From the IMG/VR virus record IMGVR_UViG_3300020166_000055, positions 1 through 35,953 of that record: a stretch of DNA of 35,953 bases, one strand, 5' to 3'. This document shows positions 3,932 to 34,767 of this stretch, piece by piece. This DNA comes from a virus. Positions within the stretch are counted from its first letter, which is position 1. Each line of letters starts with the position of its first letter. Both the position numbers and the translations under genes were made by a program. The notes beneath the pieces were generated by a model. It had not been told where the DNA came from, ran no database searches, and saw nothing but the letters and a program-made list of their open reading frames with translations.

Positions 3932-3940
3932 TCTAATCAA

Positions 3941-4001
3941 AGTTGGGGGGTTTGAACATTCCCCCCAACTGTCTTAACAAGACATGGGGATGAGAGATCC
4001 C
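3941..4001 (+). other. Three tandem stem-loops between two fibre genes
   Basis: The 103-base gap between the fibre genes holds three consecutive hairpins. Bases 3941-3950 (agttgggggg) pair perfectly with 3961-3970 across a 10-base loop. Bases 3971-3975 pair with 3979-3983. Bases 3987-3991 pair with 3997-4001. None is followed by a run of T, so a classical intrinsic terminator is not supported. RNA processing, mRNA stabilisation or a partial transcription block are possible. No late-promoter octamer lies between here and the next start, so the next gene probably depends on read-through. Confidence 0.6.
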
Positions 4002-4034
4002 TTCGAATTAGATAACCCTTAAAGGAGACAAAAA

Positions 4035-5504: not shown

Positions 5505-5526
5505 TTCTTATCAGAAACACTCAGAG

Positions 5527-5554
5527 AAAGGGAGCGGCAACGCTCCCTTTTTTT
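5527..5554 (+). terminator. Intrinsic terminator after fibre gene
   Basis: A 10-base-pair stem (aaagggagcg with cgctcccttt) is closed by a GCAA tetraloop and followed by further T residues. It ends the fibre unit. The next late-promoter box begins three bases later. Confidence 0.9.
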
Positions 5555-5557
5555 GTT

Positions 5558-5565
5558 TATAAATA
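5558..5565 (+). promoter_or_regulatory. T4-type late promoter box TATAAATA
   Basis: An exact match to the T4 late -10 element. In T4, transcription begins about six bases downstream of the octamer, here near 5571, which is also the best ATG of the following gene. That would leave almost no leader. Confidence 0.75.
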
Positions 5566-5570
5566 TGTTT

Positions 5571-6020
5571 ATGGAAATAAAATATTATAACAATCAAAAA
5601 ACAGTACAACTAAAAACTGAATCGTTCTTAGATAACCTAGAACGATATGACATAGCCCACACAACTAATCCATTAAATTTAAAGCATCGAATGGAATATG
5701 TTCCATGGGAAAAGTTAGTTATAACTGATAAGCAACGTGAAAGTTTTAATCCCGAACATGCAGTTGATATTATAGAATCATTTCATCCTGGAGTACACCA
5801 TCCAGTATGTGTTGCACTTTTTAACGGAGAGTATATAATTTGGGACGGACATCATAGTGCAGTAGTTGCATTTAAGACTGGCATGCCTAAGGCACCATGT
5901 GTTATATTTGAATGTGATACGATTGAAGATTTTCAAACATTACTTGACGCAGACACTCATATAAAATTCGATGAACAGCAGTTAATGATTATGTTTAGTG
6001 AATTTCTAGCAGAGGATTAA
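5571..6020 (+). CDS. ParB/sulfiredoxin-fold domain protein
   Basis: 149 residues from ATG 5571; an in-frame ATG at 5565 overlaps the late-promoter box and is less likely. The stretch VPWEKLVITDKQ followed by helices, HHPVCVALFNGEYIIWDGHH (residues about 76-95) and a further helix is the layout of ParB-type nuclease or partition N-terminal domains. DGHH stands where ParB proteins have their (D/N)G-(H/E)(R/H) nucleotide-binding motif. The whole protein is little more than this one domain, with no helix-turn-helix region, so plasmid-type partition is unlikely. An NTP-binding, kinase-like or nuclease activity is possible. There is no Shine-Dalgarno sequence. It ends converging on the minus-strand gene, sharing TTAA with it. 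Confidence 0.55.
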   Translation: MEIKYYNNQKTVQLKTESFLDNLERYDIAHTTNPLNLKHRMEYVPWEKLVITDKQRESFNPEHAVDIIESFHPGVHHPVCVALFNGEYIIWDGHHSAVVAFKTGMPKAPCVIFECDTIEDFQTLLDADTHIKFDEQQLMIMFSEFLAED

Positions 6021-6718
6021 TCGTTACTAAAGAATTTACTTAACGTAGATGACAGCCAAGACTTGTGTTCGTCTGACTTGTTTTCGACTACCCATTCGGG
6101 AAACTTTTTGAATAGTTTCTTCCACTGTTCCATCTCATTGTGTAAATCAATCACACGCCTGCTATACTCACTTGTGCCCGGTAGGCTATACTCATCTCGT
6201 ATATTTCTAAGATGATCTTTACATTTGCGCAAGTCTTCTATGTCTCTGTCAACCGCAAGTAATATTTCTTCGAAACTTTCACTAGTGTTAAACTTTTCGA
6301 TTAAGAACTTGTGATGATCTTTTTTTGCTTTACCATCATAAAGGAACATAATTTCTTGTAAGTCGTAGTATAATGCTTTTACTGGATTGATACTTTCTCT
6401 GTATCTTTCCATAACTTCTTTTATTTCAAATCTACTATCTATTGTGCTTAAATTTTCAAGAGCGGCCATAGCAACCATATTCATCTTTTGTCGGTTGTTT
6501 GTTATGTCACGCACGTATTTTTGTTTGATACGCTCTATAGCAGTATCAATTACTTTTTTCTCGTCTGATGTTAGTCCAGATTTAAGATATTCTAAGTGGC
6601 CAGGAGTTGTGTTATTGATACCAATACGAAGGCTATCCGCAATAACACCTGTCTTTAGGTATTCTTTGCAGTCACGGATGAACTTTTGCTTCTTGAAATC
6701 AATGATGCCTTTTGACAC
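6017..6718 (-). CDS. Uncharacterised helical protein
   Basis: 233 residues, not recognised. The predicted start is GTG at 6718, six bases after AGGAGG; an ATG two bases upstream (6720) is out of frame. The protein is highly charged and mostly helical, Lys/Glu/Arg-rich, with no membrane segment, signal peptide or Cys cluster. Residues about 125-200 (ALYYDLQEIMFLYDG, then FEEILLAVDRDIEDLRKCKD) look like a helical bundle. A perfect late box lies about 28 bases upstream on the same strand, so late expression and a virion or assembly role are likely, but function is unknown. Its stop codon overlaps the stop of the convergent ParB-like gene. Confidence 0.7.
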   Translation of the reverse strand: MSKGIIDFKKQKFIRDCKEYLKTGVIADSLRIGINNTTPGHLEYLKSGLTSDEKKVIDTAIERIKQKYVRDITNNRQKMNMVAMAALENLSTIDSRFEIKEVMERYRESINPVKALYYDLQEIMFLYDGKAKKDHHKFLIEKFNTSESFEEILLAVDRDIEDLRKCKDHLRNIRDEYSLPGTSEYSRRVIDLHNEMEQWKKLFKKFPEWVVENKSDEHKSWLSSTLSKFFSND

Positions 6719-6745
6719 ATGCTGCCTCCTTTATTCTCTCTATAG

Positions 6746-6753
6746 TATTTATA
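6746..6753 (-). promoter_or_regulatory. Late promoter box TATAAATA (minus strand)
   Basis: Read on the minus strand this is TATAAATACT, an exact late octamer, 28 bases before the GTG start of the 233-residue protein. It overlaps the end of the Nudix gene just upstream. Confidence 0.75.
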
Positions 6754-7174
6754 GGGATAATATAATATTTTTAATCTGCTTTAATTTGTTCTTTTTGAAT
6801 AGTGTGTCCCTGGTGCCTGGGTGCATGGGTTTTGGGAAATGTCCGCTATCAATCCATGCGTATCCTCCACTTTCTGTATTTAATTTTGGGAGAAACTCTG
6901 CATCTACAATTATAACAAATGTATAGTAGCTAAACTTCTTATCTCTCGAATGGTACTGGTCTAGTGGGTATATTTTTTCTACCCTATTTTCGATATCTAA
7001 ATCTATTTCTTCACGGAGTTCACGTAGCAATGCTTGCGAAACATTTTCATCTTGCTCTACTTTACCGCCCCAAAATCCCCAATGTCTAGCATATGATCCA
7101 GATGCGGCACGTTGTTGTAATAGTATTCTTTTCGTATCTTTTGCTACGATGCAACCACCTGCGGCTTTAATCAT
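6749..7174 (-). CDS. Nudix hydrolase
   Basis: About 141 residues from ATG 7174; GTG codons at 7189 and 7183 are alternative starts. The Nudix box is clear: GKVEQDE, then seven residues, then RELREEIDL. This matches G-x5-E-x7-R-E-U-x-E-E, with Asp where Gly is common. These enzymes hydrolyse nucleoside diphosphates linked to another group, such as oxidised dNTPs, NDP-sugars, ADP-ribose or capped RNA; the substrate cannot be read here. The likely start ATG overlaps the stop of the gp15-like gene (ATGATTAA), so the two are probably translated as a coupled pair from one late transcript. T4 also carries a Nudix enzyme (NudE), but not in this position. Confidence 0.85.
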   Translation of the reverse strand: MIKAAGGCIVAKDTKRILLQQRAASGSYARHWGFWGGKVEQDENVSQALLRELREEIDLDIENRVEKIYPLDQYHSRDKKFSYYTFVIIVDAEFLPKLNTESGGYAWIDSGHFPKPMHPGTRDTLFKKNKLKQIKNIILSL

Positions 7175-8564
7175 CAGTTTCACTTTCACTGATAAGTTCT
7201 AGCCTCCAGTAACCACCTTCGTAGATACCTTGATATGTATCACTCCAACTGCCATCTTCAAATTTGAATTGTTGCATAGTATATGTGTTGGTGACGTATG
7301 CTCTTTGTTCAAACTCACTTGCATCAAAACTAATAACCCATGATGAACCATTATATTCAATAATATCATTTTCTTCAATGTCAATTCCCCACACTGAATC
7401 AATATCAGCAGATCCCAAACATAGGTATCTTTGGCCAACATTTGGCGCTGGAAAGCTATTGAAACCTGGCTTAACTGTACTTGGATTAATTACTCTATCT
7501 ACGCTAGTTATAGTGTTGTTTGGTAGTGTATCACTGTCTAAGTCGAATAGAAGCGTTGTAGGGTCTCCTGTGCGCGATATAGAGCCTATTACATCAGCAT
7601 TTAAGTCTTCTAGTTCGCCATGATATTTAAGGCGCATTCTTGAAACCCCATCGTGTAAAGTACCATAATTAGATAGTACAGTGTCCCATTCTATTCCGTT
7701 TTCCCAATTGCCGTTCTCTAATGCTTTGATTAGTATAGTATCATCTTCTTTGTAAACGTTCACTGCATAGTTACCAGGAGTAACGACAACTGAATTATCT
7801 TTTTGTAAGTCAGCAAAGAATTCAAATGCGTTAGGATCATAATCGAGTGTATCTAAGTCAGAGTAATTATAAATGTTATGAATAATGTTTCTAATAACAT
7901 TTTGTTTTGTAACTTGTGCTGGTGGATTAATCCAAACTGGTATTTGGAAGAATAGACTTGCAATATCAATTTGATCCTCAATGCCTGCAGGGATACCACG
8001 ACTCGTCCATTGAATATCTGTAAGTTCTACTGTTGTAATCGTAGTCCAATCAATTGGGTTATCATTCTGTTGAATTTCAAGTGCTGGGTTGAATAGCACA
8101 AGCATCTGTTCTAACAGTTGTAATTTCTGGTCAGTATTAGATGTCCATACATCTACTTGCATGTTTAATAAGTATGGTACTGGCATCAATCTACCTACGC
8201 TGTACTTATTACCTTGTTCGTTTGTGTACTTACTTGTTTCTGGGTCCCAACGTCTTTCATTCACACCTACTGAATCTGTGAATAGTGGATCTTGTACTCT
8301 TGCTCTATCTGGTTGAAAACTCTGAACCCAACACGCAATAAATGGAGTTGAGTTAACAATGTTCTCTGAATTTCCTTTGACGATTGTGGCTGCCATACGA
8401 GATACGTCACCGTATCTTGCTGGTACACGCATGTAGTAATCACTTACACCATCATTCATCTTTTTACCTGTCTTAACAGAGAAGCCACTAAACATACGAA
8501 TGAACTGAAGGATATATCTTCTTATCTGTTCATCATAGAAATGCATTTGTCTTGTATCACTCAT
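7167..8564 (-). CDS. 15: Tail sheath stabiliser / tail completion protein (gp15-like)
   Basis: 465 residues. The N-terminal ~240 residues resemble T4 gp15 and its relatives: FYDEQIRRYILQFIRMF, then RVPARYGD, VGRLMPVPYLLNMQVDVWTS, LLEQMLVLFNPALEIQ and FFQIPVWINPPA. gp15 forms the hexameric ring that caps the top of the tail and joins it to the neck. T4 gp15 is about 270 residues; this protein has a ~200-residue C-terminal extension with Trp/Tyr-rich motifs (NDIIEYNGSSWVISFD and FEDGSWSD) that also occur in the sheath and gp14-like proteins here. It lies directly after the gp14-like gene with a TAATG overlap at 8562-8566, keeping the T4 order 14-15, but on the minus strand away from gene 13. 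Confidence 0.75.
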   Translation of the reverse strand: MSDTRQMHFYDEQIRRYILQFIRMFSGFSVKTGKKMNDGVSDYYMRVPARYGDVSRMAATIVKGNSENIVNSTPFIACWVQSFQPDRARVQDPLFTDSVGVNERRWDPETSKYTNEQGNKYSVGRLMPVPYLLNMQVDVWTSNTDQKLQLLEQMLVLFNPALEIQQNDNPIDWTTITTVELTDIQWTSRGIPAGIEDQIDIASLFFQIPVWINPPAQVTKQNVIRNIIHNIYNYSDLDTLDYDPNAFEFFADLQKDNSVVVTPGNYAVNVYKEDDTILIKALENGNWENGIEWDTVLSNYGTLHDGVSRMRLKYHGELEDLNADVIGSISRTGDPTTLLFDLDSDTLPNNTITSVDRVINPSTVKPGFNSFPAPNVGQRYLCLGSADIDSVWGIDIEENDIIEYNGSSWVISFDASEFEQRAYVTNTYTMQQFKFEDGSWSDTYQGIYEGGYWRLELISESETDD

Positions 8565-9562
8565 TATTCGTCTACCTTAGGTCTAACTGCTTTTGACAGA
8601 TTTACACGTGAATTGATTGTTGTCCCATCATCAAGTATTGATACCCCATCGTTGTTGATGAATTGATGATGTAGTCTGTGCCCGACTTCCCATCCGCCGT
8701 CATCGTCTTCAATCTTGAACCATTTATTATCACGATATTGAAATAGTCTTGCTGGTGTATAATCAACACGCAAGAAGTAAGAATTATCATCTGGCTCTTG
8801 TGGAAAATTGCGACCACTCTCTACAGTTGCATAATCGATATCGTCTGGGTGGTCGCCCTGAACTGCATACTCAAGGTTGTTCTTTCTGTAATCATAGTAT
8901 TTGCCAGGAACATTCTGTTGTGCTTCATCAACAATCGCATCATTGATTTGCAATTCAGTGTTGTATGTTGAGAGTAAATTCTTTAAGTCATCAGCTTCTT
9001 CTCCAGTGCCAAAAATATCTGAATACTCTTGTGAGTCTTGAAGTTGCTTACAGCGCACTCGCCAAATGTGTGGCCACCAACCCGGATCAAAACCTTCACT
9101 TGCTTTCGAACCTTCTTGAACAACCCAATATTGATTTACTGCGGCTGCATCTTCGTCAAGTAGTAAGTCATCTCTCATGTGAGGAAGCTCAATGACATCA
9201 CCTGTCATTAGCTTACGTCCCATTTGTTCTACCATCTGATTTAAGTGTACTGTGAATACGTTTTGGTCAGAACCTAAGAACATACCGAACTGTGACAAAT
9301 CAAAGTCTTGGTCGCTAACTGTATATGCACCGCGCAAATCATATAGCGTTGTCTCATATTTTCTATCACGATTTTCCATGAATAGAAGATCCTGGATAGG
9401 AGGATTTGCCGGGTCATAGTTTGGATCATTCTCATCCACTGAGCCGATATATTTGTGTACAAGCAATGACGTACCGCCATGATCGAAGTGCGCTTTCACC
9501 ATCTTATCAATGAACTTGTAGTCATTACCCTTACGAGGGTTCCATAAACTTAATCTTGGCAT
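8564..9562 (-). CDS. 14: Neck protein (gp14-like)
   Basis: 332 residues from ATG 9562; the frame extends further upstream but AAGGA stands just before this ATG and the late box lies beyond it. Features fitting gp14-like neck proteins are an N-terminal NPRKGNDYKFIDKMVKAHF segment, FGMFLGSDQNVFTVHLNQMV, TGDVIELPHMRDD and WRVRCKQLQDSQEY. In T4, gp13 and gp14 form the neck that seals the filled head and joins it to the tail. Placement immediately before the gp15-like gene supports this call more than similarity alone does. The C-terminus carries LFQYRDNKWFKIEDD, one of the Trp-containing motifs repeated in other tail proteins of this window. Confidence 0.6.
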   Translation of the reverse strand: MPRLSLWNPRKGNDYKFIDKMVKAHFDHGGTSLLVHKYIGSVDENDPNYDPANPPIQDLLFMENRDRKYETTLYDLRGAYTVSDQDFDLSQFGMFLGSDQNVFTVHLNQMVEQMGRKLMTGDVIELPHMRDDLLLDEDAAAVNQYWVVQEGSKASEGFDPGWWPHIWRVRCKQLQDSQEYSDIFGTGEEADDLKNLLSTYNTELQINDAIVDEAQQNVPGKYYDYRKNNLEYAVQGDHPDDIDYATVESGRNFPQEPDDNSYFLRVDYTPARLFQYRDNKWFKIEDDDGGWEVGHRLHHQFINNDGVSILDDGTTINSRVNLSKAVRPKVDE

Positions 9563-9602: not shown

Positions 9603-9629
9603 ATATGATAACACATGGAGAGAATCAAC

Positions 9630-10313
9630 ATGAATGACGGAACATTAATATCACGTGGTATTATTGCTGATACAGTAATCTCACAATTTAAGATGTGGGC
9701 AACCAATCCAGAACGATATCATCGTGGCAATGGAGTTGACGGTACATATTATGGCGAGCATGATGGCGAGCGAGAGTATGATGTGTGGTGGACTACTCAA
9801 CCACCAAAAGAAATGTGGATGCCACTAGTTGCACAGTTGTACGGCAAGGTAACACATATGTTTGGACATGAGAATTGGTCTATTCATGTTGTAGATTGTA
9901 TTACTACTCGTCCTGGATCAAGTAAAGTATATGCACACATTGATACCCCATATCGCTTTGCCGATTTTGCAGAAAGCGATGAAGTTCTTGGCGTGCAAAT
10001 TATTATACCATTAGACACATTCACAATAGAGAATGGTGCAACCGCATTGCTACCAGGATCAAATGCAGAACGAATCGATTACAAAGATTTAGAAACGAAT
10101 CGAGAGTATTACAATGACCGATTATTGTCAGAAGGTATGCAATTTCTTTCAGAACCCGGCGATGTTTTGATGTATGATAGTCGTACATTGCATAGCACAA
10201 TGCCTAACGGATCAAGCGAATTTCGTAGTGCATTGTTAATAAACGCTTTAAAAACTGACATTATTCCTCGAGTACAAGAACTTGATGGAAACACAGATTT
10301 CATTAAAAAGTAG
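9630..10313 (+). CDS. 2-oxoglutarate/Fe(II) dioxygenase, PhyH-like
   Basis: 227 residues from ATG 9630, chosen because GGAG lies eight bases before it; an in-frame ATG at 9615 has no ribosome site. The double-stranded beta-helix iron site is visible: HID (His103, Asp105), distal His188 in SRTLHST, and Arg199 as likely 2-oxoglutarate ligand. A central IIIPLDTFTIENGATALLPGS stretch (about residues 124-144) and PGD (176-178) are typical of phytanoyl-CoA-dioxygenase-like proteins. Such enzymes hydroxylate small molecules, proteins or nucleic-acid bases; the substrate is unknown. They are frequent in marine T4-like phages. Its own host-type promoter suggests early expression, unlike its neighbours. 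Confidence 0.75.
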   Translation: MNDGTLISRGIIADTVISQFKMWATNPERYHRGNGVDGTYYGEHDGEREYDVWWTTQPPKEMWMPLVAQLYGKVTHMFGHENWSIHVVDCITTRPGSSKVYAHIDTPYRFADFAESDEVLGVQIIIPLDTFTIENGATALLPGSNAERIDYKDLETNREYYNDRLLSEGMQFLSEPGDVLMYDSRTLHSTMPNGSSEFRSALLINALKTDIIPRVQELDGNTDFIKK

Positions 10314-13926: not shown

Positions 13927-16581
13927 ATGGCGACATTAGTATCCCCAGGTGTATCAGTAATGGTAGTTGACGAGTCACAGTACGCGGCAGCAACCCAAGG
14001 TACCCTACCGTTAGTTGTAGTAGCAACAGCGGCAAACAAAACAGACGCATCAGGCTCGACAATCGCAGCCGGAACAATCCCAGCAAACGCTGGCGTTGCG
14101 TATCTTGTTTCTTCACAGCGAGAACTAGTTGAAACTTTTGGTGAACCAAAGTTTTATGAAGTAGGTGGCTCAGTTGTGCAAGGATCAGAAACAAGTGAAT
14201 ACGGTCTATTAGCAGCATATCAGTATCTAGGTGTATCAAATAACGCTTATGTTATTCGTGCAGACATGGATCTATCACAACTAGAAGCATCATCAAATGA
14301 ACCAGCAGGTATTCTAACAGGCGGTACATATTGGCATGACACAGACTCATCAGTATTTGGTCTATTCAAACATGATGGCACAGATTGGGTAGCAGCAAAC
14401 CCAGTGATTCTAAACGATGAACCAGGCTCAGGTAACGTTGAAACAATCAGCATATCAGGCTACGCATCACCATCAAACACATTTGGTTCAACAGGTGACT
14501 TTGCAGTTGTAACATCAACCGCACGTATCTCATATTGGTCAAAAGTAGGTGTTAACTGGGTTCTACTAGGTGACATCGGATCACCTAACTTCTCATTTGC
14601 TAAATTCGCACCAACAGGCGCATCAGGCGATGTATATGTTCGTCTAACTCAACAGGGCGGCGGTCTTGACCTAGCAGTAGCGGCATACAATGCAGCATCA
14701 GGTCTATTCCAAGCGGTTGAAGCGCCAGTATATGGTTCAGATGATTTAGCGTTAGCAGACCTAATTACAGAAGGTGATGTATACACACATCACGATTCAT
14801 CACTGGGTATTATTCAACTACGCCGTCACACAGGCGCGACAACGAATGTACTAACAAGTGATGCAATTGCAAACACTTCATCAATCACAACAGTTTTCAA
14901 TATTGCAGGCGCAGGTTTCTCATTCTCAGGTGCAACACTTGACAATGTAATCTCAACAATGCAATCAGACACAACACTTAATAATGCGAATGTGCGTGTA
15001 GAAAAAATTGGCAATGACCGTGTACGTTTCACTAAAACAGATGGTAAATGGTTATCACTATCATTCACATCCGGTCAAACAGACTTGGGCTTCACAGCGG
15101 CAGATAACACTGCATCAGTATGGGAAGACCTATCATATGAAGCATCAGAAGAACAACCAAAAGGTGATATCGCTGAAGGTACACTATGGTTCGATGCAGA
15201 CCTAAAAATTGAAATTCTACGTAATGAATTCAATGGTTCGCAAATGGAATGGACAAAGTATGCATGGTCAGAAGACTCAAACGGTCTAAGCCAAGCAGAA
15301 CTACAACTACGTTCAGGTATGCCAACAAAGCGTAAAGACGGTACATCAGCACTAGTAACTGGTGATATCTGGGTAGACGGCGATGCAATGCCATACCCAA
15401 CAGTATATCGTTGGAACGGTTCAGAGTGGGTAAAACTAGACAATGCAGACCAATCATCAACTAACGGTCTTGTATTCGGTCACTACTCAAACGATGCACC
15501 ATTCGATGCTAACGGCGCAGCAAATGCACGTACATCACACGCAGATGCACCAAATGCAGAACTACACCCAGAGAACATCATGTTAGTAAACATGGACTAC
15601 TCAACATACAACGTTAAGCGTTGGGAAAATGGCGAGTGGGTATGGGCATCAGGTCTAAACCTAGATGGTTCAGGTCGCTTTGGTTCAGAAGCAACACGTG
15701 GTATGGTAGTAGAAGCAATGCAAGCGGCAGTAGCAGGCAACGAAGGTATTCGTTCAGAAGCAACTTACTTCAACCTAATCGCAGCACCTGGTTACCCAGA
15801 ACTAATGGACGAAATGATTTCTCTAAACAAAGATAAGAAAGAAATCGCATTCGTAATCGGTGATGCTCCACTAACATTGAAGTCAGATTCAACATCAATG
15901 AAAGCATGGGCAGATTCAAATCTTCCAGCAGATGCATACGCAGGTGTTTATTACCCACATGGTCTATCAACAGACTTATCAGGTAACGATGTTGTAATCC
16001 CAGCATCAGCAGTTGCACTACGCACATTTGCTTTCTCAGACCAAGTATCATTCCCATGGTTTGCACCAGCGGGTCTAACACGTGGCGTTGTATCAAATGC
16101 TTCACAAGTTGGTTATGTAACAGACGAAAACGAATTCTCACGTGTACGTCTAACAGAAGGCCAGCGTGACGTTCTATACATGAACAGAATGAACCCAATC
16201 GCAGATATGCCAGGCACAGGTCTAGTAGTATATGGTCAGAAGACACTTCAATCATATGCATCAGCAACAGACCGTGTTAACGTAGCACGTCTAATCAACT
16301 ACATGCGTTTCAATCTTGACCAGCTATCACGTGGTTTCTTATTCGAACAGAATGACAAAATCACACGTGATAACATGCGTGATGCAGTAGAACGTTTCTG
16401 TTCAGGTCTTGTTATTAATCGTGGCCTATACGACTTCCTAGTAGTATGTGACGAAACAAATAACACACCAGCACGTATTGATAGAAACGAACTATGGGTA
16501 GACGTTGCAATTCAGCCAGCGAAATCAGTTGAATTTATCTACATTCCACTACGTATTCGTAATACAGGTGAATCACTATAA
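13927..16581 (+). CDS. 18: Contractile tail sheath protein (gp18-like)
   Basis: 884 residues. The N-terminus (VSPGVSVMVVDESQYAAATQ) and the C-terminus (ARIDRNELWVDVAIQPAKSV followed by EFIYIPLRIRNTGE) are hallmark sheath sequences. The C-terminal ~300 residues also hold ATYFNLIAAPGYPELMDEM and the conserved NVARLINYMRFNLDQLSRGF region. Sheath subunits form the contractile cylinder around the tail tube. T4 gp18 has about 659 residues; the extra length here lies between about residues 125 and 580, a Ser/Thr/Asp-rich insertion with repeated GT(Y/L)W.D and W.G..W motifs, likely exposed domains on the sheath surface. Expressed from its own late box and closed by a terminator at 16615-16641. Confidence 0.92.
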   Translation: MATLVSPGVSVMVVDESQYAAATQGTLPLVVVATAANKTDASGSTIAAGTIPANAGVAYLVSSQRELVETFGEPKFYEVGGSVVQGSETSEYGLLAAYQYLGVSNNAYVIRADMDLSQLEASSNEPAGILTGGTYWHDTDSSVFGLFKHDGTDWVAANPVILNDEPGSGNVETISISGYASPSNTFGSTGDFAVVTSTARISYWSKVGVNWVLLGDIGSPNFSFAKFAPTGASGDVYVRLTQQGGGLDLAVAAYNAASGLFQAVEAPVYGSDDLALADLITEGDVYTHHDSSLGIIQLRRHTGATTNVLTSDAIANTSSITTVFNIAGAGFSFSGATLDNVISTMQSDTTLNNANVRVEKIGNDRVRFTKTDGKWLSLSFTSGQTDLGFTAADNTASVWEDLSYEASEEQPKGDIAEGTLWFDADLKIEILRNEFNGSQMEWTKYAWSEDSNGLSQAELQLRSGMPTKRKDGTSALVTGDIWVDGDAMPYPTVYRWNGSEWVKLDNADQSSTNGLVFGHYSNDAPFDANGAANARTSHADAPNAELHPENIMLVNMDYSTYNVKRWENGEWVWASGLNLDGSGRFGSEATRGMVVEAMQAAVAGNEGIRSEATYFNLIAAPGYPELMDEMISLNKDKKEIAFVIGDAPLTLKSDSTSMKAWADSNLPADAYAGVYYPHGLSTDLSGNDVVIPASAVALRTFAFSDQVSFPWFAPAGLTRGVVSNASQVGYVTDENEFSRVRLTEGQRDVLYMNRMNPIADMPGTGLVVYGQKTLQSYASATDRVNVARLINYMRFNLDQLSRGFLFEQNDKITRDNMRDAVERFCSGLVINRGLYDFLVVCDETNNTPARIDRNELWVDVAIQPAKSVEFIYIPLRIRNTGESL

Positions 16582-20392: not shown

Positions 20393-20974
20393 ATGAAAAG
20401 TTTTAAAGAATATTTAACAGAATCAGTTAATGAACACAAGATGACTCTACGTTTTGCATCAGAACTAGAAGACAACGATGTTAATCGTATTGAGCGTTTC
20501 TTAGGCAAGTATGACCTAAGAACTATCTCTAGCGTTTCGACAACACCAATTACAAAGAACCCAATGTTCTTTGATGATGTAGAAAATACAAAAGTTTCAA
20601 AAGTAGATATTACAACTGGCTATCCAATGTCAGCGGATGTTCTACGTCAGCAACTATCAGATTTACTTGAAATGAACATCACACATATCGTTGTACACCC
20701 AGAAGGTTGGGAACCAACAGAAGAAGTTGAAGAAGACGGTGATAAAAAAGCACTACTAGATACTCCAGAATATGGTGATGAGTCAGATAATGGCAAACAT
20801 TATGGTCGTACTTTTGTAGACAACTTTTTAAAGACACTTTCAAAGCGTGATGACCATGATAGTGTAGCAGTTGAAAATGAACTATCTGTTAAAGCAAAGC
20901 GTGATAAAGCAGGTGAAGTAATGACAACAGAAGAAGGTTCAAGTGACTCAGTTATCTCAGGAGATGAAAAATGA
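20393..20974 (+). CDS. Candidate internal head protein with capsid-targeting N-terminus
   Basis: 193 residues from ATG 20393 (GGAGA eight bases upstream). The N-terminus MKSFKEYLTES resembles the capsid-targeting sequence MKTYQEFIAEA of T4 internal proteins, which sends proteins into the prohead and is removed by the gp21 protease after I/L-x-E. Here LTE followed by Ser is a matching cleavage site. The rest is not recognised: a globular region (MTLRFASELEDNDVNRIERF through ITHIVVHPEGWEPTEEVEED) and an acidic C-terminus with Ser/Asp/Glu runs. If the signal is real, this protein is packaged and may be injected with the DNA. Expression is late. It overlaps the next gene by four bases. Confidence 0.6.
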   Translation: MKSFKEYLTESVNEHKMTLRFASELEDNDVNRIERFLGKYDLRTISSVSTTPITKNPMFFDDVENTKVSKVDITTGYPMSADVLRQQLSDLLEMNITHIVVHPEGWEPTEEVEEDGDKKALLDTPEYGDESDNGKHYGRTFVDNFLKTLSKRDDHDSVAVENELSVKAKRDKAGEVMTTEEGSSDSVISGDEK

Positions 20975-21384
20975 AAAAACATTACAATCTAACAACAACA
21001 GAAGATAATGGCAAATCACTTACTACGACAAATACAAGTACAGAGTATCCAGAAGAACTAGTTCGTATGCTTGCTCTTGCTGGTCAAGGTATGCCACAAG
21101 TAGCTCCTGCTCCAGTAGCAGATGATTGCGGCTGTGGTTGTGGACAATCACCATGTGGCTGTGATGAAGCTGTTGAAGAAGAAATGGAAACAGAATATAA
21201 GCCAACTCCAGCGAATGATGAACTAGACTTAGATGATTATTCAAAGAAGACAGCGAATTCTATTTCACGTCAAAAGAAAACACTAAAGCCAAGTGCAGGC
21301 GATAATCCACTTGAGTATTCAGTAAATGAAGACGATATCTATGAAGCACTAATGGCGGATTTTGATTCAAACGAAGATAATTAA
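20971..21384 (+). CDS. Small Cys-cluster protein
   Basis: 137 residues, not recognised. The start ATG overlaps the stop before it (ATGA). A tight cluster, DCGCGCGQSPCGCDE (about residues 51-65), holds five cysteines within eleven residues, flanked by Pro/Ala and Glu-rich linkers. It could bind metal (Zn or Fe-S) or form disulfides. The C-terminal half is acidic and contains NSISRQKKTLKPSAGDNPLE. Coupling to the candidate internal head protein suggests a related late role. A terminator follows at 21411-21437. Confidence 0.65.
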   Translation: MKKHYNLTTTEDNGKSLTTTNTSTEYPEELVRMLALAGQGMPQVAPAPVADDCGCGCGQSPCGCDEAVEEEMETEYKPTPANDELDLDDYSKKTANSISRQKKTLKPSAGDNPLEYSVNEDDIYEALMADFDSNEDN

Positions 21385-21386
21385 AC

Positions 21387-21402
21387 GCTCTACCGATTGA
21401 GC
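21387..21402 (-). other. tRNA D-arm-like hairpin
   Basis: Read on the minus strand, the bases are GCTCAATCGGTAGAGC, the same as the D-arm of many bacterial tRNAs (four-base stem, loop with GG). No anticodon stem, T-arm or acceptor stem follows, so it is not a tRNA gene. It may be a relic or coincidence. Confidence 0.35.
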
Positions 21403-21410
21403 GGCCCTAA

Positions 21411-21437
21411 AAGAGCGTCCCAATGGGGCGCTTTTTT
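21411..21437 (+). terminator. Intrinsic terminator
   Basis: agcgtccc pairs with ggggcgct (one G-T pair) across a three-base AAT loop and is followed by six T residues. The late box of the next gene starts six bases further on. Confidence 0.8.
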
Positions 21438-21442
21438 ATTTG

Positions 21443-21450
21443 TATAAATA
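21443..21450 (+). promoter_or_regulatory. Late promoter box TATAAATA
   Basis: An exact late octamer 23 bases before ATG 21474; ATGGAG serves as ribosome site. Confidence 0.78.
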
Positions 21451-21473: not shown

Positions 21474-22967
21474 ATGGCAAACAACTTCGTTAGGACGGAT
21501 GCTTCTAGTATCCCAACCGAAAATAATACATTTGATATAGGCAGTGCAGAATACCGTTTTAATGATGTTTATGCAGAAACGCTACAGGGTGTTGCTACAC
21601 TTTCAGATAACCTTACTATTTCAGGTGAAGCAGGGGATGTACTGACATATAATAATAATAGTTTAAAATGGACAGCTTCCAGTGCGTTTGCTACTAAGTC
21701 ATACGTCACTGAACTGATTTCACGTATTAATAACGATATTACTATAAACCTTGATGGTTATGTCACAGAACTAGAACTAGAAACTGCAATATCTAACTTT
21801 GGGGATTCAATCGTTATTGAGCCAGGACCTAAAGGTGATACTGGTGACACTGGCCCACAAGGATTACAAGGGATCAAAGGGGATACTGGAGAAACTGGAT
21901 TGCAGGGTCTACAAGGACCCAAAGGCGATAAGGGCGATATCGGCGAAACTGGACTTGCAGGATCAGATGGACAAGACGGCGCGACAGGACCGCAAGGGCC
22001 TAAAGGCGACACTGGGGAAACTGGCCCATCTGGGCCACAAGGACTACAGGGGCTACAAGGGCCTAAAGGTGACACGGGAGATAAGGGCGATACTGGTACT
22101 CCCGGATTAACTGGCCCACAAGGGGAACAGGGTATACCTGGAACTGCGGCAGAGCGTGGCGAACCGGGACCTAAAGGTGATACTGGTGATATAGGTCCAC
22201 AAGGCGAACAAGGCCCACAAGGACTACAGGGTCTACAAGGGCCTAAAGGTGATACTGGGGATCGCGGACTTCAAGGCTTGCAGGGATTACAAGGTATTCA
22301 AGGGGATACTGGAGAAACTGGACTAGCGGGACCAACAGGCCCTAAGGGAGACAAAGGTGACACTGGAGATCAAGGCTTGCAGGGACCAACAGGGCCTCAG
22401 GGATTATCAGGTGCAACAGGATCTAAAGGTGACAAAGGTGATACTGGTGATACAGGCCCACAAGGAGAACAAGGTGTTGCTGGTAGTGATGGGATCGACG
22501 GACAAAATGGCACAGCCGGCGCTGATGGTGCAAGTGCATATGAAGTAGCGGTCAGCAATGGCTTTGTCGGCACTGAAACAGAATGGCTAGATAGTTTAGT
22601 AGGACCAGCAGGACCAGCGGGACCAGCAGGCGCTGATGGTGTAGATGGATCAGGTGGAACGGGCGGCACGGCGTATGACCAATCACTTAATACAACAGAC
22701 AGCGTAGAGTTTTCAAGTTTGACTACATCTGAATTGACTATAACAGGAGTAGGAGATACAACGATTACTTCTGGAGCAGACGTAAAGTTGGATTCTACAA
22801 ATCGAGTTGGTGTAATTAATTCTCCGTTTAGATTAGCACACATGTCTAATGCAGAACGTGATGCAATAATTGCACAAGCAGGTGATATGATTTATAATGT
22901 AGAAGATATGAGTTTCCAAGTATACACAAACGGCTCATGGTATAAACTTAACTTAACCGCAGTATAG
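21474..22967 (+). CDS. Collagen-like tail fibre protein
   Basis: 497 residues from ATG 21474 (late box and GGAG upstream support this start over one 51 bases earlier). Residues 1-115 form an N-terminal attachment region with TNNTFDIG-type and [15 protein letters not shown] motifs. From about residue 117 to 345 runs an almost unbroken Gly-X-Y collagen-like tract rich in GPKGDTG, GLQG and GETG, with one imperfect triplet (AER). A globular insert, [20 protein letters not shown], common in phage fibres, is followed by a second short tract ([13 protein letters not shown]). The C-terminus has [19 protein letters not shown] and [12 protein letters not shown], a usual fibre tip. Collagen-like trimers make stiff rods, so a tail or neck fibre is likely. 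The next gene is a subtilisin-like protease in the same unit. Confidence 0.85.
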
Positions 22968-22977
22968 GGAGACTACG

Positions 22978-24558
22978 ATGAGAGAATGGATTGTAGTTTT
23001 AGAAAAAGACATCGACTATAACACATTTTGGGATGAAATTGAAAATGATAGTCCCGATGATGGATTCATTCCATCACGTAGAGTAGATATCGCAAATGAA
23101 CGTCCCGGTATGCGAAGAATGTGTCATTACTTGTTATCTGATATAGAAGCAGAAGAATTGAGAAATGATAATAGAGTATTATCAGTGGAACTTCCATTCG
23201 AAGATGATGACAACGATGAAGTTATGGTTCTCGGATTAGAACAAGATTATGACTTTGACAGAAGTGTAATAAGTAATAATGCCCAAGTTTCTAATTGGGG
23301 ACTAATCAGATGCAACAAACTAGACAAACCTGAGTCTAGTGCATATTCTGAAAATTATTCCTATACATTAGATGGCACTGGCGTAGATGTTGTTATTATA
23401 GATACTGGTATTGTAGCAGATCATCCTGAATGGGAAGATGTAGATGGTAATTCTAGATTGCAACAAATTGATTGGTTTGCAGAAAGCGGTGTCAGCGGGA
23501 CGCAGCATGAAAGACATTATGAAGATACTAACGGTCACGGGACTCATTGCGCCGGTATTGCGTCAGGCAAAACTTTTGGTTGGGCAAAAAATGCACGTAT
23601 ATATGCAATCTCTATGGGATCAGCTATACTAAATGGCGGTAATCCAAACGGTATTCAAAGTATTTCACAAGTTTTTGATGTTCTATTGGGTTGGCACAAT
23701 AACAAACCTATAGATCCTGCAACTGGATACAAGCGGCCTACAATTGTAAATGCTAGTTGGAATGTCGTCTCATTCAATGATTGGGATGACGCTAGGTACA
23801 TTACTTGGCGCGGCAACCGAATTCCGTATAGTGATTTCTCTAGTGCATCAGATGCATGGGAAAAGACGGGGCTTCGACCTAATTATAGTAACGGCAGGGA
23901 AGGCGGTACTTCTAGTAACTATGTCAATACATCAGTTGAAGAATTGATAGACGCTGGTATTCATATTTGTAATGCAGCGGGTAATAGTTTTAGAACATTA
24001 AATGGTCCCGGAGACATTGATTATAGTAATGTATTTGAATATTATGTCCCCCCTGCTGGACAGGTTATTTCCTCTAGTATGCAGTGGCGACCAGGCGCAC
24101 CATATGTGCAAGATAGAATGTTTTTAGTTGGAAATATAGATAATATACTGGATGTTGGAACACAGAAAGATAGAAAGAACGGATCGAGCAATAGTGGTCC
24201 GGCTGTAAACATTTTTGCTCCAGGTACTAACATCATGAGTTCATATGTTTCATCGGGCGAATATTATGCAGATGCTAATTACAATCAGGCAATATTAACT
24301 GGGACGAGTATGGCAGCGCCCCAAGTATGTGGAGTTGGCGCATTAGTATTACAAGCAAACCCATGGGCGACACCAGAACAATTGATTGCACATATATTAG
24401 GAAACGGTGGGAAAGAAAAAATTAAAAATCCAGACCATCCGTTTGACTCATGGACACAAGTAACTGCGGATTACACAGATAATACTACTACTCTGGGTGC
24501 GAATAATGTGATGTTATATAATATATTTAATAACCCTATACCCACCAATATAGGCTGA
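22978..24558 (+). CDS. Subtilisin-like serine protease (peptidase S8)
   Basis: 526 residues. The full catalytic set is present: Asp142 in VVIIDTGI, His187 in GHGTHCAGIASG, oxyanion Asn336 in CNAAGNS and Ser444 in GTSMAAPQV. The first ~75 residues, beginning REWIVVLEKDIDYNTFW and ending VLSVELPFED, have the size and pattern of an inhibitor-type propeptide. An acidic linker follows. There is no signal peptide, so it is made in the cytoplasm, and could be carried on the virion or act during assembly. It begins 10 bases after the collagen-like fibre gene, in the same late transcript, suggesting it matures a fibre or acts on host surface protein. The stop codon overlaps the late box of the large terminase. 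Confidence 0.9.
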   Translation: MREWIVVLEKDIDYNTFWDEIENDSPDDGFIPSRRVDIANERPGMRRMCHYLLSDIEAEELRNDNRVLSVELPFEDDDNDEVMVLGLEQDYDFDRSVISNNAQVSNWGLIRCNKLDKPESSAYSENYSYTLDGTGVDVVIIDTGIVADHPEWEDVDGNSRLQQIDWFAESGVSGTQHERHYEDTNGHGTHCAGIASGKTFGWAKNARIYAISMGSAILNGGNPNGIQSISQVFDVLLGWHNNKPIDPATGYKRPTIVNASWNVVSFNDWDDARYITWRGNRIPYSDFSSASDAWEKTGLRPNYSNGREGGTSSNYVNTSVEELIDAGIHICNAAGNSFRTLNGPGDIDYSNVFEYYVPPAGQVISSSMQWRPGAPYVQDRMFLVGNIDNILDVGTQKDRKNGSSNSGPAVNIFAPGTNIMSSYVSSGEYYADANYNQAILTGTSMAAPQVCGVGALVLQANPWATPEQLIAHILGNGGKEKIKNPDHPFDSWTQVTADYTDNTTTLGANNVMLYNIFNNPIPTNIG

Positions 24559-24564
24559 TAAATA
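24557..24564 (+). promoter_or_regulatory. Late promoter box GATAAATA
   Basis: Overlaps the TGA stop of the protease gene (ggcTGATAAATA), 28 bases before the terminase ATG. Confidence 0.7.
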
Positions 24565-24592: not shown

Positions 24593-26152
24593 ATGGCAGA
24601 CTTAACAAAACGTGCATATCAGAAAACAGAATATACTAACGAACAGTTACTAGAACTTAGTAAGTGTATAGATGATCCTTACTATTTCCTCAATCAATAC
24701 TTTACAATTCAGCATCCTACTAAAGGTAGTATGATATACAAAGCATACTCGTACCAAGATGAACTTGTAAATTCATATCACAACTATCGCTATAGTATTT
24801 CAATGCTTGGTCGCCAGATGGGTAAGTCTACCACAGCGGCTGGCTACTTGTTATGGTATGGCATGTTTGTGCCTGACCAAACTATCCTTATTGCGGCTCA
24901 CAAATATAGCGGCGCACAAGAGATTATGCACAGAATTAGATATGCATATGAAATGTGCCCAGATTATATTCGATGTGGTGTCGTATCATATAACAAAGGA
25001 TCGATAGAGTTTGATAACGGTTCTCGTATTATTGCACAAGCTACTACAGAAAATACAGGTCGTGGTCTTTCTATCTCACTATTATACGCAGATGAGTTTG
25101 CATTCGTGCGCCCTACAATTGCGAAAGAATTCTGGACTTCAATCTCGCCTACACTAGCTACTGGTGGTAAAGCTATCATCACATCTACTCCAAACTTAGA
25201 TGATGACCAATTTGCTCTTATTTGGCACGGCGCATTAAAGACACTTGATGAATATGGTAATAAAACAGATGTCGGAGTCAATGGCTTTAGAGCATATAAA
25301 GCAGTATGGTCTCAGCATCCAGATAGAGACGATAAGTGGGCAGGGGAAGAAAAAGGACGTGTTGGCGTCGAGCGGTTCATGCGTGAACATGAATGTGAAT
25401 TCGTTGCATTTGATGAAACTCTTGTAGATAGTGTGAAGTTATCACAATTTAAAGGTATTGAACCACTGAAAAAGAGTGGACAAGTACGTTGGTATGAACC
25501 AATCAAACGAGACTCCACATATGTAGTAGGGCTTGATCCTAGTATGGGAACAGGCGGCGATAATGCGGCTATCCAAGTATGGAGCCTACCTGAAATGAAT
25601 CAAGTTGCTGAATGGATGCACAATAAAACAGATATGCGCGGACAGGTTAGAATACTACATGAGATGCTAACTGAAATCAGCGATGAAATGAGAGCATTGG
25701 GCAATAAATCACCAGATATATATTGGTCAGTTGAGAATAACTCATTAGGAGAAGCCACCCTTATTCTTATTGAAGAAATGGATGAAGATAAGTTTCCAGG
25801 AGAGTTCCTACATGAACCAGCAAAGCGCGGACAGTCACGTGCTATAAGAAAAGGCTTTACCACAACGCATAAAAGTAAAATCACAGGTTGCATGAAGATG
25901 AAATCTTGGATTGAGTCTGATAAGATGACGCCACAAAGTAAAAACTTAATCAGAGAGTTTAAGACATTCGTTGCTAAAGGTAGAAGCTATGAAGCTAAGT
26001 TGGGTGAGACGGATGACTTAGTATCAGCGACATTATTATGCGTTAGACAGATACAAGTTATATCTAGGTTTGATGAGCAATATGAAAGTTTGTTAGGGGA
26101 AAGTTTAGACGGCGATGAGGATTATGATCAACCCCTTCCTGTAGTATTTTGA
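24593..26152 (+). CDS. 17: Terminase large subunit (gp17-like)
   Basis: 519 residues (T4 gp17 has 610). The ATPase has Walker A GRQMGKST at about 73-80, Walker B LLYADEF with Asp167/Glu168, and coupling motif ITSTPN near 196-201. The RNase H-like nuclease has Asp315 in VVGLDPSMGTGGD, Glu in WSVENNS near 387 and the late Asp pair in GETDDLVSA. It powers DNA translocation into the head and cuts the concatemer. The gene is intact, with no intron or intein. It is expressed from a late box overlapping the protease stop, and its own stop overlaps the next late box. Confidence 0.96.
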   Translation: MADLTKRAYQKTEYTNEQLLELSKCIDDPYYFLNQYFTIQHPTKGSMIYKAYSYQDELVNSYHNYRYSISMLGRQMGKSTTAAGYLLWYGMFVPDQTILIAAHKYSGAQEIMHRIRYAYEMCPDYIRCGVVSYNKGSIEFDNGSRIIAQATTENTGRGLSISLLYADEFAFVRPTIAKEFWTSISPTLATGGKAIITSTPNLDDDQFALIWHGALKTLDEYGNKTDVGVNGFRAYKAVWSQHPDRDDKWAGEEKGRVGVERFMREHECEFVAFDETLVDSVKLSQFKGIEPLKKSGQVRWYEPIKRDSTYVVGLDPSMGTGGDNAAIQVWSLPEMNQVAEWMHNKTDMRGQVRILHEMLTEISDEMRALGNKSPDIYWSVENNSLGEATLILIEEMDEDKFPGEFLHEPAKRGQSRAIRKGFTTTHKSKITGCMKMKSWIESDKMTPQSKNLIREFKTFVAKGRSYEAKLGETDDLVSATLLCVRQIQVISRFDEQYESLLGESLDGDEDYDQPLPVVF

Positions 26153-31328: not shown

Positions 31329-33620
31329 ATGGGAATTCAAGTAGTCAAACGTGACGGTGACAGAGAAGAACTAGACCTAGAAAAAATGCACAAGGTCGTG
31401 TTCTTTGCATGTGACGGTATCGCTGGCGTATCACCAAGTGAGGTAGAGATTAAATCTCACATTCAGTTTTACGACGGTATTACTAGTTCAGAGATTCAAG
31501 AAACACTGATTAAGTCTGCCGCAGATTTGATTAGTGAGGACACGCCTAACTATCAGTGGGTAGCAGGCAATCTAGTTAACTATCATCTTCGAAAGATGGT
31601 ATACAATAGTTTTGAACCAGTACATATTTTAGACTTAGTAAAGAATAATGTAGAACGAGGATTCTACGATTCATCATTACTTGAAGACTATTCAAAAGAA
31701 CAATGGGAAACACTAAACAGCTATATCAAACATGACCGTGACTTCAACATTTCATATGTTGGTATGGAACAATTCCGTGGCAAGTATCTAGTTCAGAACC
31801 GTGTAACAAAAGAAGTGTTTGAGACACCTCAGATGGCTTACATGTTGATTGCCGCAACTCTATTCTCTAACTATCCAAATGAAACAAGAATGAAGTGGAT
31901 AAAAGATTACTATGATGCGATTAGTAATTTTGATATCTCACTCCCAACTCCAGTAATGGCAGGCGTTCGCACGCCACAGAGACAATTTTCCTCCTGTGTT
32001 CTAATTGAGACTGGTGACTCGCTTGATTCAATCAATGCGACATCTAGTTCGATTGTTAAGTATGTCTCACAGAAAGCTGGCATAGGTGTTAATGCTGGCG
32101 CTATTCGTGCGATTAATTCTCCAATTCGTAATGGAGATGCGTCCCATACTGGCGTTATCCCTTTTTATAAAATGTTCCAAGCGGCTGTTAAGTCATGTTC
32201 GCAAGGTGGTGTTCGTGGCGGAGCAGCAACTCTATACTATCCTATTTGGCATTTAGAAGTAGAAGACTTACTTGTTCTAAAGAACAACAAAGGCACAGAA
32301 GACAATCGTGTTCGTCACTTAGATTACGGCGTACAGTTCAACAAGCTAATGTATGAACGTCTAATGACTGGTGGAGATATCACTCTATTCTCGCCACAGG
32401 ACGTCCCAGGACTATACGAAGCATTTTTTGCAGACCAAGATAAGTTCCGTGAACTATATGAGAAAGCAGAACGTAAGACATCTATTCGTAAGAAATCTAT
32501 TACTGCAATCGATCTGTTCTCTGCATTCATGAATGAACGTAAGAACACTGGTCGCATCTATCTAATGAACGTAGACCATGCAAACGACCATGGATCGTTT
32601 AAACCAGATGTAGCACCAATTCGACAATCAAATCTTTGCTGTGAAATTAATCTTCCTACAAAGCCACTGAATGATTTGAACGATCCTGAGGGTGAGATTT
32701 CATTGTGTACGCTTAGTGCTATTAATTGGGGTAATATTAAAACTCCAGCAGACTTTGCTAAACCATGTGAACTATCAATTCGTGGACTAGATGCACTACT
32801 TGATTATCAAAAGTATCCAGTACTTGCGGCACAATTGTCAACAGAAAAACGCCGACCACTAGGTATCGGTATCATCAACTTCGCTTATTGGTTAGCTAAG
32901 AATGACACAAACTATTCGAACCCAAATCTTGAACTAGTAGATGAATGGGCAGAAGCGTGGAGCTACTACCTAATTAAAGCATCTAATACTCTTGCTAAAG
33001 AGCAAGGTAAATGTTCTGGTACAGATGAAACACGTTATGGTGACGGTGTTGTCCCAATGGATACTCGCAAACGTGATGTAGATGAACTTGCACCATATGT
33101 AGAACGTCAAGACTGGGACACACTACGTGCAGACTTGAAAGAGTATGGCATTCGTAACTCAACTGTTATGGCACTTATGCCAGCAGAAACATCAGCACAG
33201 ATTTCAAACTCTACAAACGGAATTGAGCCACCGCGCTCACTTGTATCTGTTAAGCAATCCAAGCATGGTGTTCTAAAGCAAGTTGTGCCAGGTATTCATA
33301 AACTGAAAAATAAATATGAACTACTATGGGATCAACAATCACCAGAAGGCTACATTAAGATTATGGCGATCCTACAGAAATATATCGACCAAGGTATCTC
33401 AGTAAACACAAGCTACAATCCTGTATTCTTTGATGATGAAAAGATTCCTATGTCAGTAATGTTGCAACATCTAATTATGTTCTATAAATATGGTGGGAAG
33501 CAACTTTACTATTTTAATACATTCGACGGTCAAGGAGAGATTGACGTATCGAAACTAATGGAAGAACCACTAGCACAATCAGAAATCGATGATGACGATT
33601 GTGATGCGTGTGTAATTTAA
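31329..33620 (+). CDS. nrdA: Ribonucleotide reductase class Ia large subunit
   Basis: 763 residues, close to E. coli NrdA (761). The catalytic residues align with a constant offset of two: Cys223 in SSCVLIETGD, Asn435/Cys437/Glu439 in NLCCEI and Cys460 in ISLCTLSA. The C-terminal redox pair is present but spaced Cys758-x2-Cys761 (DCDACVI) instead of four residues apart. An ATP-cone-like N-terminus (VVKRDGDREELDLEKMHKVV) is retained. It reduces NDPs to dNDPs with NrdB. The gene is intact, with no intron, intein or homing endonuclease, which are common in phage nrd genes. Start ATG follows CGGAGAAG. Confidence 0.97.
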   Translation: MGIQVVKRDGDREELDLEKMHKVVFFACDGIAGVSPSEVEIKSHIQFYDGITSSEIQETLIKSAADLISEDTPNYQWVAGNLVNYHLRKMVYNSFEPVHILDLVKNNVERGFYDSSLLEDYSKEQWETLNSYIKHDRDFNISYVGMEQFRGKYLVQNRVTKEVFETPQMAYMLIAATLFSNYPNETRMKWIKDYYDAISNFDISLPTPVMAGVRTPQRQFSSCVLIETGDSLDSINATSSSIVKYVSQKAGIGVNAGAIRAINSPIRNGDASHTGVIPFYKMFQAAVKSCSQGGVRGGAATLYYPIWHLEVEDLLVLKNNKGTEDNRVRHLDYGVQFNKLMYERLMTGGDITLFSPQDVPGLYEAFFADQDKFRELYEKAERKTSIRKKSITAIDLFSAFMNERKNTGRIYLMNVDHANDHGSFKPDVAPIRQSNLCCEINLPTKPLNDLNDPEGEISLCTLSAINWGNIKTPADFAKPCELSIRGLDALLDYQKYPVLAAQLSTEKRRPLGIGIINFAYWLAKNDTNYSNPNLELVDEWAEAWSYYLIKASNTLAKEQGKCSGTDETRYGDGVVPMDTRKRDVDELAPYVERQDWDTLRADLKEYGIRNSTVMALMPAETSAQISNSTNGIEPPRSLVSVKQSKHGVLKQVVPGIHKLKNKYELLWDQQSPEGYIKIMAILQKYIDQGISVNTSYNPVFFDDEKIPMSVMLQHLIMFYKYGGKQLYYFNTFDGQGEIDVSKLMEEPLAQSEIDDDDCDACVI

Positions 33621-33636
33621 TAAACGAGAGAAATAA

Positions 33637-34767
33637 ATGTCAGTATTCAATTCAAAAAACAAAGCAGACCATACAAAAGCACTAGCGTTTCTAGACCCAA
33701 ATGGCGGTGTAGCAATTCAACGTTTCGATATGCTAAAGTATAAGCAGTTTGACAAACTAACAGACAAGCAACTTGGTTTCTTCTGGCGCCCAGAAGAAGT
33801 AGATGTAACTAAAGATTCAAATGATTTCAAAAATCTTACAGACCATGAGCGTCACATCTTTACGTCAAATCTAAAGCGTCAGATTCTACTAGACAGTGTA
33901 CAAGGACGTGCGCCAGTAGAAGCATTCGGTCCACTAGTATCTATTCCAGAACTAGAAGCATGGATCCAAACTTGGACATTTAGTGAAACAATTCACAGTC
34001 GTTCATATACACATATTATTCGTAACGTATATTCTGACCCATCAAAAGTGTTTGACGGCATGATGGACATTGAAGAAATTATGGATTGTGCAGATGATAT
34101 CTCAGAATGTTATGACCAGCTAATCGATATGACTTCATACTTCAATCTATTGGGCGAAGGTACGCATAATGTCAATGGGAATGAAGTAGTTGTAGACAAA
34201 TACGAAATTAAAAAGTTGCTTTATAAAACTCTTATGAGCGTAAATATTCTTGAAGGAGTTCGTTTCTATGTCTCATTTGCTTGTTCATGGGCATTTGCAG
34301 AATTGAAGAAGATGGAAGGCAATGCTAAAATCATCAAGCTAATTGCACGTGATGAAAATCTACACTTGGCATCTACACAAACACTACTAAAACTTCTACC
34401 AAAAGATGATCCTGACTTTATTCAGATTGCTAAAGAGACAGAAGCAGAATGTATTCAAATGTTTGTAGACGCAGTAGAACAAGAAAAAGAATGGGCTCGG
34501 TATCTATTTAAAGACGGTTCAATGATCGGTCTGAACACTCAACTGTTAGCAGATTATATTGAATGGATTTGTTGTAAGCGTATGACCGCTGTTGGTCTTA
34601 AATGCCCTTACGCTACGCCGCAAGCCAATCCACTACCGTGGACAGCTAAGTGGATCTCGGGCGCAGATGTACAAGTAGCACCACAAGAAACAGAAATTTC
34701 ATCATATGTTATCGGTGGGGTTAAGCAAGACGTTGACAATAACACATTCGGAGGCATGTCACTATAA
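33637..34767 (+). CDS. nrdB: Ribonucleotide reductase class Ia small subunit
   Basis: 376 residues, exactly the length of E. coli NrdB and very similar throughout. Di-iron ligands and the radical Tyr are in place: Asp86 (LLDSVQGR), Glu117 and His120 (FSETIHSRSYTHIIRN), Tyr124, then ARDENLH for the later Glu/His ligands. It makes the tyrosyl radical used by NrdA. The C-terminus (DNNTFGGMSL) should dock on NrdA. It starts 16 bases after nrdA; its TAA shares an A with the methyltransferase ATG. Strong similarity to gammaproteobacterial-type NrdB may reflect old transfer or shared ancestry with T4-type enzymes. Confidence 0.97.
   Translation: MSVFNSKNKADHTKALAFLDPNGGVAIQRFDMLKYKQFDKLTDKQLGFFWRPEEVDVTKDSNDFKNLTDHERHIFTSNLKRQILLDSVQGRAPVEAFGPLVSIPELEAWIQTWTFSETIHSRSYTHIIRNVYSDPSKVFDGMMDIEEIMDCADDISECYDQLIDMTSYFNLLGEGTHNVNGNEVVVDKYEIKKLLYKTLMSVNILEGVRFYVSFACSWAFAELKKMEGNAKIIKLIARDENLHLASTQTLLKLLPKDDPDFIQIAKETEAECIQMFVDAVEQEKEWARYLFKDGSMIGLNTQLLADYIEWICCKRMTAVGLKCPYATPQANPLPWTAKWISGADVQVAPQETEISSYVIGGVKQDVDNNTFGGMSL

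Follow-up and report, generated by a model that had tools for sequence, protein, structure and literature searches.

Analysis of the window, that is the whole stretch of 35,953 bases studied here (virus record IMGVR_UViG_3300020166_000055), revealed T4-type tail genes coding for a tail sheath stabiliser (7167-8564, minus strand) and a sheath (13927-16581), and a T4-type terminase gene (24593-26152) whose product shows 54% identity to the terminase of PA5oct-like jumbo phages. A tail fibre gene and an S8 protease gene sit between the tail genes and the terminase, which comes after the protease (Table 1). Both genes were found where the first-pass annotation had placed them, and the gap between them is, as it had stated, exactly 10 bases. 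A gene for a PhyH-like 2-oxoglutarate oxygenase is also present among the structural genes (9615-10313).

Table 1. Features of the fibre-protease locus, in coordinates of the window.
Feature	Position	Strand	Basis
Intrinsic-terminator-like hairpin closing the upstream unit	21408..21438	+	14-pair stem, T run
TATAAATA, T4 late-promoter-like motif	21443..21450	+	24 bases 5' of the fibre ATG
Collagen-like tail fibre, 497 aa	21474..22967	+	ORF, Gly-X-Y runs, Pfam Collagen, PHROG tail fibre families
Gly-X-Y collagen-like shaft, residues 118-400, interrupted	21825..22673	+	Gly-X-Y runs
C-terminal module of the fibre (final 100 aa), conserved	22665..22964	+	Shared with relatives; the part that stays constant beside the protease
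Intergenic gap with GGAG ribosome-binding sequence	22968..22977	+	10 bases; GGAG opens the gap
S8 subtilase, 526 aa; Asp142, His187, Asn336, Ser444	22978..24558	+	Pfam, alignment, structure model
N-terminal propeptide-like domain, residues 1-98	22978..23271	+	Structure model, alignment to pro-forms, conserved Arg/Asp/Glu positions
GATAAATA, late-promoter-like motif	24557..24564	+	At the protease stop codon, before the terminase gene

The two genes had been assigned to one late unit. The terminator-like hairpin and the flanking motifs fit such a two-gene unit of fibre and S8 protease, and neither TATAAATA nor GATAAATA occurs between the fibre and protease genes; the assignment is motif-based, however, and the count of TATAAATA across the window is not above chance, so that the copy at 21443 is backed by its position and not by frequency. 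T/GATAAATA motifs stand shortly 5' of several gene starts, at 6753(-), 9595(-), 12208, 16672, 20358, 21443, 24557 and 26151, and these positions are likely the late-promoter set of the window phage. A tRNA D-arm-like hairpin, GCTCAATCGGTAGAGCG, lies at 21386-21403 (minus strand), right past the stop of the gene at 21384 (20971-21384); ARAGORN detected no tRNA at this hairpin.

The fibre ORF starts at the ATG at 21474, and a longer ORF from 21423 is also present. The shaft contains Gly-X-Y runs of 36, 42 and 8 triplets, the protein matches Pfam Collagen with an E value of 5e-41, and it has the Gly-X-Y repeats and fibre-like ends of collagen-like phage tail fibres. Comparison with the fibres encoded next to S8 genes in other viruses indicated that the shafts are not common to them and that the shared part is a module of ~75-100 C-terminal amino acids (..NGDMIYNTTTNKFQGYANGAWVDLH). 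Collagen runs were found in only 5 of the 81 distinct complete S8-partner fibres, and collagen was rejected as the conserved partner of the protease. The pairing of a collagen-like fibre with a subtilisin, as proposed in the first-pass annotation, is thus conserved far beyond the window phage, but its constant element is the C-terminal module and not the collagen.

The module is conserved through the final residue in most members. It has a small beta fold, whose C-terminal half is weakly matched (Z about 5) by trimerisation or knob domains of small size (collagen XV, Mtd, CBA120 TSP3), and on this structural comparison the module is probably trimerising. No PDB entry proved to be closely related to the module in sequence, and the Peptidase S74 intramolecular chaperone profile was absent from the fibre C-terminus in the 45 modules scanned. 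A single-sequence search with the window module returned no relatives, which were recovered when the module alignment was used as query. A bacterial origin of the module was also considered and set aside: only eight weak genome loci were obtained, and S8 lay beside none of them.

The protease matched Pfam Peptidase_S8 (PF00082) with an E value of 8e-30 and 104.6 bits (cut-off 21.8). Asp142, His187 and Ser444 form the triad in subtilase order, with Asn336 as the oxyanion residue, and the four residues are intact in 122 of 123 distinct complete S8 relatives, the exception being a truncated ORF; triad losses suggested by a regular-expression count proved to be artefacts once the sequences were aligned. 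The window protease looks catalytically competent. The structure model (27 relatives in the alignment; mean pLDDT 82, pTM 0.87) superposed on the keratinase/aqualysin/proteinase K group with Z 33-36 and 2.4-2.5 A over ~275 residues, with keratinase 5wsl at Z 36.3, and the group also including aqualysin I (4dzt) and proteinase K (1ic6). In the model, the N-terminal domain and the propeptides present in two unprocessed forms, pro-subtilisin E and ProN-Tk-SP, superpose from residue 1, and residues 1-98 were therefore assigned to a propeptide-like domain, which is retained among the S8 relatives. At an E value of 0.01 the Pfam search did not detect the Inhibitor_I9 profile, although the pro-forms align structurally from residue 1. 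A low-confidence linker covers residues 86-101 of the model, where the pro/mature junction would be expected. Inspection of the protease N-terminus revealed no hydrophobic signal peptide. These results agree with the first-pass description of a protease with all catalytic residues, an N-terminal propeptide-like domain and no secretion signal, and its placement outside the standard T4 set was likewise supported. Identity with the T4 gp21 prohead protease (S77) was rejected, PF00082 being the sole profile match and the gene lying between fibre and terminase, not among head genes.

S8 relatives were encoded on fifty-eight viral contigs, and as a rule the gene upstream of S8 either overlaps the protease gene or stops no more than about 20 bases short of it. 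A search with the module alone found S8 directly downstream in 79 of the best 80 loci. Since these are the nearest matches, the test was repeated on an unranked sample of fibres found by the DNA motif for NGDMIYN, a motif of the module. S8 was directly downstream in 61 of 73 testable fibres; beyond these, one motif fibre lay upstream of another in the same locus and seven ended at a contig edge. Among the control fibres, which were found by a motif from a different common fibre repeat, S8 came next in 0 of 28 (Fisher p 8e-16, a value that overstates independence because the sampled sequences are partly related). The 12 motif fibres devoid of an S8 neighbour had no obvious replacement enzyme downstream, their neighbours being other fibres and small structural or unrelated genes. 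When S8 proteins were clustered at 60% identity, the module stood upstream in 23 of 29 clusters, which include loci chosen through the module. Module and protease are thus tightly linked, and in many uncultured, mainly aquatic T4-like bacterial viruses the fibre end piece is almost always directly followed by an intact, predicted subtilisin gene, and the survey proposed in the first-pass annotation found the pair conserved. One contig (L134, 4235-7841) carries tandem S8 genes after a single fibre, one close to and one distant from the window protease.

A cytoplasmic protease whose targets during infection are proteins of the host or the phage, and which adjoins the fibre merely through late-gene clustering, would fit the late-gene position and the missing secretion signal. 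Linkage to one fibre module, with none of the 28 control fibres followed by S8, and the virion-associated homologue gp228 of S-SCSM1 described below make this reading highly improbable.

The extent of fibre homology was compared with S8 divergence. Among 2426 pairs with S8 identity of 30-60%, the fibres aligned only over C-terminal residues, with a median of ~117 and amounting to roughly 20-25% of the protein; in pairs with closer S8 proteins the fibre was alignable over its whole length. Since the alignment is confined to the last ~117 amino acids, the homologous block starts inside the fibre and extends through the protease, and the two, module plus protease, form a cassette that is exchanged as a unit. 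The window and locus L002, for instance, share 58% identity over the last 97 amino acids of the fibre and 59% over S8, while their shafts differ. Module and S8 also co-diversify, with a Spearman coefficient of ~0.6 for both the propeptide and the catalytic parts. A comparable pattern, with other modules, was seen in cultured cyanophages: the proteins before S8 in S-H38, S-CREM1 and S-WAM2 have their last ~125 residues in common (50-58% between S-WAM2 and the other two), and the N-terminus of the S-WAM2 protein is unlike its counterparts in S-H38 and S-CREM1. Another common C-terminal part is found in P-SSM2 gp296 and S-SCSM1 gp227, each followed by S8. Transfer of the pair beyond T4-like phages received no support, since the contig examined (G013) carries T4-type sheath and gp15 genes.

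Two further loci are recorded here. Two genes of the window (31329-34767) are ~76% identical to genes at 3982-7443 of L005, where they stand just upstream of a fibre-S8 pair whose protease is only 42% identical to that of the window. The T4-like contig L273, which has a fibre-S8 pair, also carries genes for a tryptophan halogenase, a luciferase-like monooxygenase and a carbamoyltransferase (1966-8580).

The first-pass annotation had suggested that the protease might be carried on the virion to digest host surface proteins, and two homologues lend support to the carriage. S-SCSM1 gp228, 30% identical to the window protease, has two C-terminal Laminin_G_3 lectin domains, a fused architecture different from that of the window, and was labelled '(virion protein)' by its depositors. 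The S-SCSM1 paper gives 45 virion proteins by mass spectrometry, ORF91, ORF213 and ORF214 among them (PMC9602691). These three carry the label in the S-SCSM1 record, while evident structural genes (hub proteins, short fibre, tail lysozyme) do not, and we infer from the record that the label marks mass-spectrometry detection, with 48 labels against the 45 proteins of the paper. The second homologue, the uncultured S8 relative L024, has a C-terminal part that matches a portion of Syn33_094, a baseplate wedge protein of cyanophages. C-terminal extensions of 300-400 amino acids occur in the S8 proteins of L024, the one searched, and of L018, L029, L035, L037, L039 and L051, and a small gene lies between fibre and protease in all of these loci but L039. 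In S-CAM1, the homologue bears a tail-fibre protein annotation; the S8 gene was not named in the virion proteomics texts of S-CREM1 and S-SM1.

The label on gp228 and its fused lectin domains would also suit an S8 protein whose main role is that of a structural or adhesive subunit at the tip, with proteolysis serving only to process its own propeptide, as autoprocessing is normal for propeptide subtilases. The retention of the triad and oxyanion Asn in 122 of 123 relatives, with no lineage showing visible loss, argues against it, and we regard a mainly structural or adhesive role as improbable.

Fibre chaperones usually lie directly after the fibre gene, and other phages remove fibre chaperone parts. 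The S8 protein might accordingly be an assembly enzyme that cleaves the fibre at the module or close to it once the module has nucleated the trimer, releasing or exposing the mature tip. Its obligate place right behind the fibre is the usual chaperone place, the module looks, by the weak match, like a trimerisation domain, and a fibre-processing enzyme would also fit the tight module-S8 linkage and their co-diversification. Such an enzyme has, however, no need of the lectin or baseplate-type fusions or of the virion label seen in homologues; the module is conserved to its last residue in most members, and S8 also adjoins fibres with other C-terminal modules. We consider this role rather unlikely, yet the most serious of the three alternatives.

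We favour, as somewhat more likely than not, a protease that is carried on the virion, linked to the fibre and directed at proteins of the host surface; docking, presence in the virion of the window phage, activity and substrate are all part of what we infer. T4-like phages would have in this pair a mobile adhesin cassette, made up of a fibre of any shaft (here collagen-like), the module and a subtilisin-type protease. The protease would be made as a propeptide-bearing zymogen, held in check by the propeptide in the cytoplasm until assembly or release, and incorporated in the virion at the end of the fibre or close by; on the mature particle the protease would digest proteins of the host surface during adsorption or entry. 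Depolymerase tailspikes, which digest polysaccharide, offer an analogy. Against this proposal stand the absence of any ORF fusing module and S8 among those found, the 12 of 73 motif fibres lacking an S8 neighbour, and a virion label that belongs to a 30%-identical homologue of different, fused architecture. The wider proposal, that a large aquatic group of T4-like phages docks a subtilisin-class protease at the fibre end through a two-part module-protease cassette swapped between shafts, is plausible but held more tentatively. If true, the digestion of host surface proteins would be a widespread but overlooked part of how phages adsorb in water, and the module would serve both as a sequence tag predicting a virion protease and as a natural docking element for enzymes on fibres.

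S8 genes in cyanophages are already annotated, and an S8 peptidase cluster in P-HM1/P-HM2 has been mentioned (PMC3037559); our literature search, of incomplete coverage, found no description of a fibre-module/subtilase cassette. The cyanophage S8 genes (P-SSM2 gp297, S-WAM2 gp058, S-H38, S-CREM1 gp165 and S-SCSM1 gp228) are homologous to the window gene over most of their length at 27-33% identity and are likewise preceded by fibre or tail-pin proteins, but these partners carry other C-terminal modules, and gp228 is fused to lectin domains. With the proteinase K/aqualysin-like S8 subtilases the window protease shares the fold, triad, oxyanion Asn and N-terminal propeptide-like domain; it differs in being a phage late gene product without signal peptide, in carrying insertions within its catalytic domain and in being constantly paired with a fibre module. 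T4 gp38-type and Tfa chaperones or adhesins are also encoded directly downstream of the fibre and linked to its C-terminal part, whereas the window gene is unrelated to them in sequence and encodes a catalytic subtilase. The proposed logic, a receptor-contacting fibre with an enzyme degrading the host surface layer, is common to the enzyme-bearing tailspikes (depolymerases), except that here a protease is involved, and it is encoded by a gene of its own rather than forming a beta-helix domain within the spike.
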